DNA from: an uncultured Planctomycetota bacterium
GTDB taxonomy: Bacteria; Planctomycetota; Brocadiia; CAIUPP01
Length of the DNA: 64,000 nucleotides
Reading direction: 5' to 3'
NCBI GenBank assembly: GCA_903901045.1
Contig: CAIUPP010000130.1
Span: forward strand, 1 to 64,000
The translations under genes and the position numbers were made by a program. Shown here piece after piece: positions 27,288 through 63,061 of this stretch (the stretch's first letter is position 1; each line of letters starts with the position of its first letter). The notes beneath the pieces were generated by a model. The model ran no database searches. It was given only the letters and a program-made list of their open reading frames with translations, and was not told the DNA's origin.

Positions 27288-27324
27288 CGGGGGGGGGGCG
27301 GTTGGCCGATTTTCCCCTCAAGCC

Positions 27325-27570
27325 CAGGGCAAACGCATCTCAAAAGCGTCGCAGAATGTGGAGTGCGCCGCCGCCGGCGGCGCTTTGGCTATGACGGGGC
27401 GCACGACTCACGGGGGTGGCCCCTGAGAGCGCCGGACTCCACGCCATCCAAAGCGGCGTCGTTGCCGCCGCACTCCACAAACCATTGCGCTCAGCGCGAT
27501 CACAATCATGCATCGCGATCCAGACCCTTGACGCCACAGCCAGCGGCGTTCTTGAGATGCGTTTGCCCTG
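27325..27570. mobile_element. MITE-like element, copy 1 (246 bp, 19-bp TIRs, 10-bp TSD)
   Basis: The ends are perfect 19-bp terminal inverted repeats (CAGGGCAAACGCATCTCAA at 27325-27343 and its complement at 27552-27570). The element is flanked on both sides by the same 10 bases, CCCTCAAGCC (27315-27324 and 27571-27580), as expected for a target-site duplication. Inside, an imperfect 30-bp inverted repeat beginning TGGAGTGCGCCGCCGCC would fold into a large hairpin. It encodes nothing. A close copy of almost the same length is at 46466-46710. It fills most of the 490-bp gap between the XRE regulator and the next secreted protein. Confidence 0.85.
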
Positions 27571-27690
27571 CCCTCAAGCCCGGAAGCCCTAACAACGAGC
27601 GGGGGAGAATGGTACAATCCTGGGCGCTTTTGGAGTGAGTTGGAATTGCCGGAAGTGCAACGGGGTTTTTGCAGGAAAAGGAGAGGAACT

Positions 27691-46391: not shown

Positions 46392-46465
46392 GCGGCAAAC
46401 TTTCTTCGTGGCCGTGCTCGTCCATTTCCGTCCCTGTCCGCCCGTTGTTCCCCCCGCCGCCGCCC

Positions 46466-46710
46466 CAGGGCCAACGCATCTAAGAAGCGCCGCAGAATGT
46501 GGAGTGCGCCGCCGCCGGCGGCGCTTTGACTATGACAGAGCGCACGACTCAAGGGGATGCGCCCTGAGGGTGCCGGACTCCACGCCATCCAAAGCGGCGT
46601 CCTTGCCGCCGCACTCCATAAACCATCGCGCTCAGCGCGATCACAATCATGCATCGCGATCCAGACCCCTGACGCCACAGCCGGCGGCGCTCTCTAGACG
46701 CGTTCCCCCC
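46466..46710. mobile_element. MITE-like element, copy 2 (245 bp)
   Basis: About nine-tenths identical by eye to copy 1 at 27325-27570 over its whole length, and only one base shorter. The ends are more diverged (CAGGGCCAACGCATCTAAGA left; right end complement GGGGGGAACGCGTCTAGAGA). Ten identical bases, GCCGCCGCCC, flank both sides (46456-46465 and 46711-46720), consistent with the 10-bp target duplication of copy 1, although this sequence is low complexity. The internal TGGAGTGCGCC hairpin is retained. Confidence 0.8.
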
Positions 46711-46728
46711 GCCGCCGCCCGGCCACAG

Positions 46729-62940: not shown

Positions 62941-63061
62941 TGGACTGCGGCGGCAACGACGCCGCTTTGGCTTGGTAAGGACTTGTTCACGCGCAGGACT
63001 TGCTGGGCAGGTATGCCGCGTTCACCAAGAGCCAAAGCGCCGCCGTTGGCGGCGCACTCCA
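62941..63061. repeat. 121-bp inverted-repeat element related to the MITE hairpin
   Basis: Arms of 36-38 bp (from TGGACTGCGGCGGCAACGAC at 62941 and ending GCGGCGCACTCCA at 63061) flank a 47-bp loop. The arms match the internal hairpin of the MITEs at 27325-27570 and 46466-46710, in reverse orientation, but the MITE terminal repeats are absent. It occupies the place where a higB gene would be expected. Confidence 0.65.

Follow-up and report, generated by a model that had tools for sequence, protein, structure and literature searches.

A non-coding element with a central hairpin doublet

The window, the whole stretch of 64,000 nucleotides that was analysed, is part of contig C130, in an assembly of 4.77 Mb made of 154 contigs and 94% complete. 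Between a minus-strand helix-turn-helix/cupin regulator gene and a plus-strand gene of unknown family, it contains a non-coding element of 246 bp with the layout of a MITE (27325..27570, plus strand), referred to below as copy 1. The termini form a perfect inverted repeat of 19 bp, with CAGGGCAAACGCATCTCAA on the left (27325..27343, plus strand) and its counterpart on the right (27552..27570, minus strand). Imperfect pairing goes on to 27364, and 83% identity is found when the comparison of the two ends is extended to 40 nt. Immediately outside, the 10-bp target duplication CCCTCAAGCC is present on the left (27315..27324) and on the right (27571..27580), identical at 10 of 10 positions, and the 11th base matches too. 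The initial annotation had reported at 27315-27580 a MITE with 19-bp inverted repeats and an exact 10-bp duplication, devoid of protein-coding sequence. This element is real, the element proper being 27325-27570, and no protein is evident inside it.

Within copy 1 lies a core of 119 bp (27359..27477, plus strand), composed of two REP-like palindromes of 29 nt placed in inverted orientation on either side of a loop (53-59 nt). The first arm, GGAGTGCGCCGCC-GCC-GGCGGCGCTTTGG, is found at 27360..27388 on the plus strand, and the second, which reads GGAGTGCGGCGGCAACGACGCCGCTTTGG on the minus strand, at 27448..27476; the stems of both arms show covariation. The strand of copy 1 folds better than 200 of 200 shuffled sequences (z −6.1). 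The large internal hairpin, which had been remarked upon as unusual, is therefore present, but it is not an ordinary MITE interior: as described below, it is a separate, dispersed REPIN-like doublet that also occurs outside the MITE.

A second copy, 91% identical to the first, is located at 46466..46701 (plus strand), between a glycosyltransferase gene and a semialdehyde dehydrogenase gene, and carries its own REPIN-like core (46500..46618, plus strand). Its left end, at 46466, has one mismatch in the terminal 16 bp, and its right end lacks the expected final 7 bp (TGCCCTG). A GC-rich direct repeat of 19 bp, GTTCCCCCCGCCGCCGCCC, flanks the copy on the left (46447..46465) and on the right (46702..46720), where it overlaps the site of the missing terminus. 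This copy had been described as extending over 46466-46710 with a 10-bp flank repeat of its own. It is indeed the same element, but the flanking repeat is 19 bp long and the right end is damaged. Both the missing end and the 19-bp repeat could plausibly have arisen after insertion, through repair, or conversion, that drew on the left flank.

Copies and target duplications in the genome

In a BLAST search of the assembly, the subfamily that includes copies 1 and 2, hereafter subfamily A, had 23 matches, either full or at contig edges, with identities of 78-100%. Because some of the contig-edge halves come from one insertion, this corresponds to about 20 insertions. One copy, on contig C111, is divergent and still recognisable as subfamily A. 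A second group, subfamily B, has the ends and the core type of subfamily A and different spacers. It comprises C130:65497-65779, C11:9162-9421, C60:86757-87017, C93:26899-27160 and C11:48786-49016, together with contig-edge halves. The first of these lies just past the window; it is 283 bp long, its flanks match at 7 of 10 positions, and its right REP arm is broken by extra sequence. The terminal sequence itself has 46 matches in the genome at 2 mismatches or fewer, compared to 0 with a reversed control, and the elements are short (110-283 bp), non-coding and multicopy.

Flanks agreed at 8 or more of 10 positions in 10 of the 16 complete elements, compared to 0 of 240 cross-pairings (maximum 7), and one further copy has a 9/9 target duplication. 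Copies at contig edges could be rejoined in pairs through matching flanks of 9-10 bp (C34 with C46, C18 with C75, C61 with C20, C100 with C26, C31 with C32, and C103 with C94). Since edge copies rejoin in this manner, we concluded that contigs break at the MITEs. A genome-wide count had been called for in the initial annotation, and is provided by the 23 subfamily-A matches and 46 ends. Two findings had been named there as telling against its reading, a lack of further copies and unduplicated flanks at other copies; both were looked for, and neither was obtained.

Neither the MITE nor its ends were matched in any of 57 relatives, and the plasmid collection gave no match. Among the sampled genomes, the MITE seems confined to this lineage.

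The ends are those of ISAs1 insertion sequences

The end sequence CAGGGCAAACGCATCT, of 16-18 bp, was found in more than 117 stretches of other genomes, and in other phyla it bounds insertion sequences of 1173-1189 bp. In two of these, one of 1189 bp from Chitinophagaceae and one of 1173 bp from Bacteroidia (L122 and L099, respectively), the pair of ends encloses a transposase gene matching the ISAs1 family (NCBIfam NF033564, 1e-117 in both cases). The Chitinophagaceae element is flanked by a 10-bp target duplication, TGGGGGCAAG; the other begins at a contig edge, where the duplication is unreadable. ISAs1 elements have ends of 14-22 bp starting with CAGGG and produce a direct repeat of 10 bp (PMC11946415). 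The MITE agrees with them in end length, CAGGG start and 10-bp duplication, its ends being identical over 16-18 bp to those of the insertion sequences above. It differs from them by its interior, a REPIN-like doublet rather than a gene or unrelated filler, and in that no transposase was found in the genome.

Because the same ends bound ISAs1-encoding elements elsewhere, one of them with a 10-bp duplication, an ISAs1 transposase is the likely mobiliser. The 94%-complete assembly gave no match to NF033564. The transposase gene may have been lost, may be absent from the sampled strain, or may have been lost in assembly, which is possible because repeats break contigs. Two matches to an IS4-like or other DDE_Tnp_1 transposase were considered as a possible parent, and neither lies between these ends. 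That the MITE transposes without a transposase of its own, being mobilised in trans, has good support from three observations: its copy number, its target duplications and the full-length ISAs1 elements with the same ends elsewhere. The same three observations sustain the initial annotation, which had seen direct evidence of transposition at copy 1. Its proposal of a transposase located elsewhere holds as regards mobilisation in trans, but not as regards an ISAs1 gene in this assembly; similarly, the full-length insertion sequence with the same termini that it had suggested searching for was found in other species, and not in this assembly. The ISAs1 assignment, and the identification of the internal hairpin as an independent REPIN-like element, are additions to that first description.

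Elements that are short and non-coding, share these ends and are flanked by 10-bp duplications were also detected in Nostoc, Gloeocapsa, Legionella, Mucilaginibacter and others. Those of cyanobacteria, including Nostoc and relatives (L101, L104, L125, L146 and L169), are 127-128 bp long; their ends are the same or similar, and their 10-bp duplications are exact. They are possibly the published Nezha (Zhou et al. 2008), which the papers citing it present as a MITE of cyanobacteria (PMC3733652, PMC10969869) and which, according to these citing accounts, is likewise a small, non-coding, inverted-repeat element.

The core is a dispersed REPIN-like doublet

REP-like arms were found 88 times in the genome (44 per strand), compared to once in the control. 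They form 38 intact doublets, 23 of them in MITEs and 15 standing alone, with full flanks and no MITE ends; arms outside the 38 intact doublets are mostly at contig ends or decayed. One standalone element, of 121 bp, lies in the window (62941..63061, minus strand). All 15 standalone doublets start with TGGA and end with TCCA (TCTA in one case), and their flanks resemble neither each other nor the MITE spacers. Similarity between their loops (51-60 nt) is at the level of shuffled sequences, except for C130:62941 with C119:1597, and none of these loops matches those of subfamilies A or B above that level. Loops within one MITE subfamily, by contrast with the standalone ones, are nearly identical.

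Covariation of the arm stems was analysed on a set grouping the arms of this genome and those of distant genomes of the same phylum. In this set, 96% of cells are paired, and 15 double changes were counted against a shuffled mean of 5.7, a comparison that does not amount to a probability because the sequences are related. The arms themselves gave no match in 97 relatives, and a broader arm pattern was found in 3 other same-phylum genomes of 391. One of these, G323, has 7 matches to the pattern, including an inverted doublet. In such distant carriers the stems covary, and the flanks that were read contain no MITE ends; the arm family seems to be older, or to have spread laterally. Copies from G323 (L244-L251) and from a second genome, G329 (L242, L245), belong to the same arm family and have stems that are swapped yet complementary, and some of the G323 copies contain an extra inner palindrome.

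REPINs are REP doublets forming a hairpin (Bertels and Rainey 2011, PMC3116915). Inverted REP palindromes, a variable spacer, genome-wide dispersal and doublets as the rule are all common to REPINs and to the core described here. The core differs by its location, mostly inside a DDE-type MITE, and by its number, tens of copies rather than hundreds. Classical REPs have a GT(A/G)G head (PMC2817692), which is absent from most standalone copies, where the flanks are mostly TTTGGA or TATGGA. As candidate RAYTs for a GGAG-type REP, 6 Y1 transposase genes were inspected, and none has such a REP within the ~1.5 kb on each side. We use the name REPIN-like because the classical head and a RAYT flanked by the same REP were both missing in these searches. 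A putative RAYT-type Y1 transposase may have spread the core originally.

Assembly of core and shell

Among complete copies, core identity tracks shell identity (r of 0.93 in subfamily A and 0.89 in subfamily B), meaning that core and shell were amplified as one unit. Between the two subfamilies, spacers and loops are no more alike than shuffled sequences, whereas identity is about 90% within each, and this favours two separate captures. The loops point in the same direction: they are conserved within each subfamily, but those of A and B are unrelated, as are those of most standalone copies. It thus appears that two lineages of ISAs1-type MITEs each captured a REPIN-like element, probably in independent events, and then amplified it.

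We therefore favour, with a probability of roughly 0.85, a MITE with ISAs1 ends, mobilised in trans, whose passenger is a captured and pre-existing REPIN-like core. Both MITE ends would be recognised by a DDE transposase of the ISAs1 family, provided in trans, and insertion would generate a target duplication of 10 bp, sometimes 9 bp. The REPIN-like element, independent in the genome, would have come to lie between two ISAs1 ends, and would since have been copied as a passenger of the MITE. Neither an empty site nor an ancestral form of A or B lacking the REPIN was encountered.

Among the alternatives, the one that survives best, although we hold it to be rather unlikely, concerns the number of captures. 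Subfamilies A and B could descend from one ancestral MITE and a single REPIN capture, the spacers and loop having diverged and the ends and arms having been retained by selection; in its favour, the ends, the arm type and the central doublet are common to both. It is difficult to reconcile with spacers and loops that have diverged down to the level of shuffles between A and B when copies within each remain about 90% identical. Moreover, the divergent C111 copy is still of subfamily A, which indicates a gradual decay inside A and no bridge to B.

That the central hairpin arose inside an ordinary ISAs1 MITE, standalone doublets being old MITEs without their ends, is already disfavoured and, in our estimate, improbable. 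Such an origin would agree with doublets being commoner in MITEs than outside (23 versus 15), and with arms that are near-identical in the two settings. All 15 standalone doublets, however, share the same boundary (TGGA...TCCA) amid unrelated flanks, with no trace of a MITE spacer, and similarity of their loops to those of A or B does not exceed that of shuffled sequences. In addition, distant same-phylum genomes have the same arms, covarying stems and at least one inverted doublet, with no MITE ends in the flanks read.

Slightly less credible again is a core acting as a conserved regulatory RNA or terminator, and not as a mobile REPIN. In favour of this, its hairpins are strong and its stems covary, but no RNA family of Rfam matched at the element, neither a terminator-like site nor a terminator-like T run was found at copy 1, and standalone loops are mostly unrelated to each other. 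Finally, an IS630-family transposase, first suspected as the mobiliser from a reading frame that abuts the terminal sequence at the end of contig C103 and matches IS630-family C-termini in plasmids, is most improbable and was ruled out as a parent: the end of C103 and the start of C94 have the flank ATGCGAAAC in common and, when joined, make up a single MITE interrupted at TA, in which the frame is nested; the C94 side holds an N-terminal fragment that would suit a transposase of this kind, and IS630 duplicates TA only, not 10 bp. This IS630-type element (L038:930-1084 at the C103 end, L012:1-345 at the C94 start) is inserted at a TA inside a subfamily-A terminal repeat.

On the preferred reading, that of an ISAs1-ended MITE with a captured REPIN-like passenger, one selfish element is lodged inside another in both main forms of the MITE, A and B. 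MITEs and REPINs are usually held to be separate classes, relying on different chemistry (DDE versus Y1 HUH transposases). In this genome, the REPIN-like doublets inside ISAs1-type MITEs outnumber the standalone ones, which shows that an element of one class can be carried by one of the other. It becomes testable whether the hairpin helps the MITE or is simply carried along, and the exact ISAs1 ends, common across phyla, make such MITEs easy to search for.

Other REP-type hairpins between ISAs1 ends

An element of 110 bp on contig C43 (C43:9444-9553) has the same ends and a different hairpin, starting with GTGGGGACACAATACTTTCC. This hairpin is also present alone on C111 and C130, and it resembles the repeats found around a RAYT-like gene on C54. 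The C43 element is possibly a third capture, of another REP type. In Flavobacteriales, an element that has these ISAs1 ends and is flanked by a 10-bp duplication (L103:1862-2164) contains three GACCCCGAAGGG-type palindromes in a REP-like layout, and could be a parallel case in another phylum. Given the unrelated loops of A and B, the different hairpin on C43 and the three palindromes of the Flavobacteriales element, a more speculative proposal, to which we attach little confidence, is that ISAs1-type MITEs repeatedly take up REP or REPIN hairpins that aid persistence or transposition, yielding two-layer elements movable by either DDE or Y1 transposases. A MITE with another repeat class inside has been reported in Porphyromonas (BrickBuilt, PMC4596501); as outlined in that report, the likeness is that of a MITE carrying a second class of repeat, its cargo being a tandem minisatellite and not a REPIN. 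The RAYT-like gene on C54 (L094; C54:29539-29877 and surroundings) encodes a Y1 transposase and has AGTCGGGACACAATACTTT-type repeats on both sides, with 5 matches.
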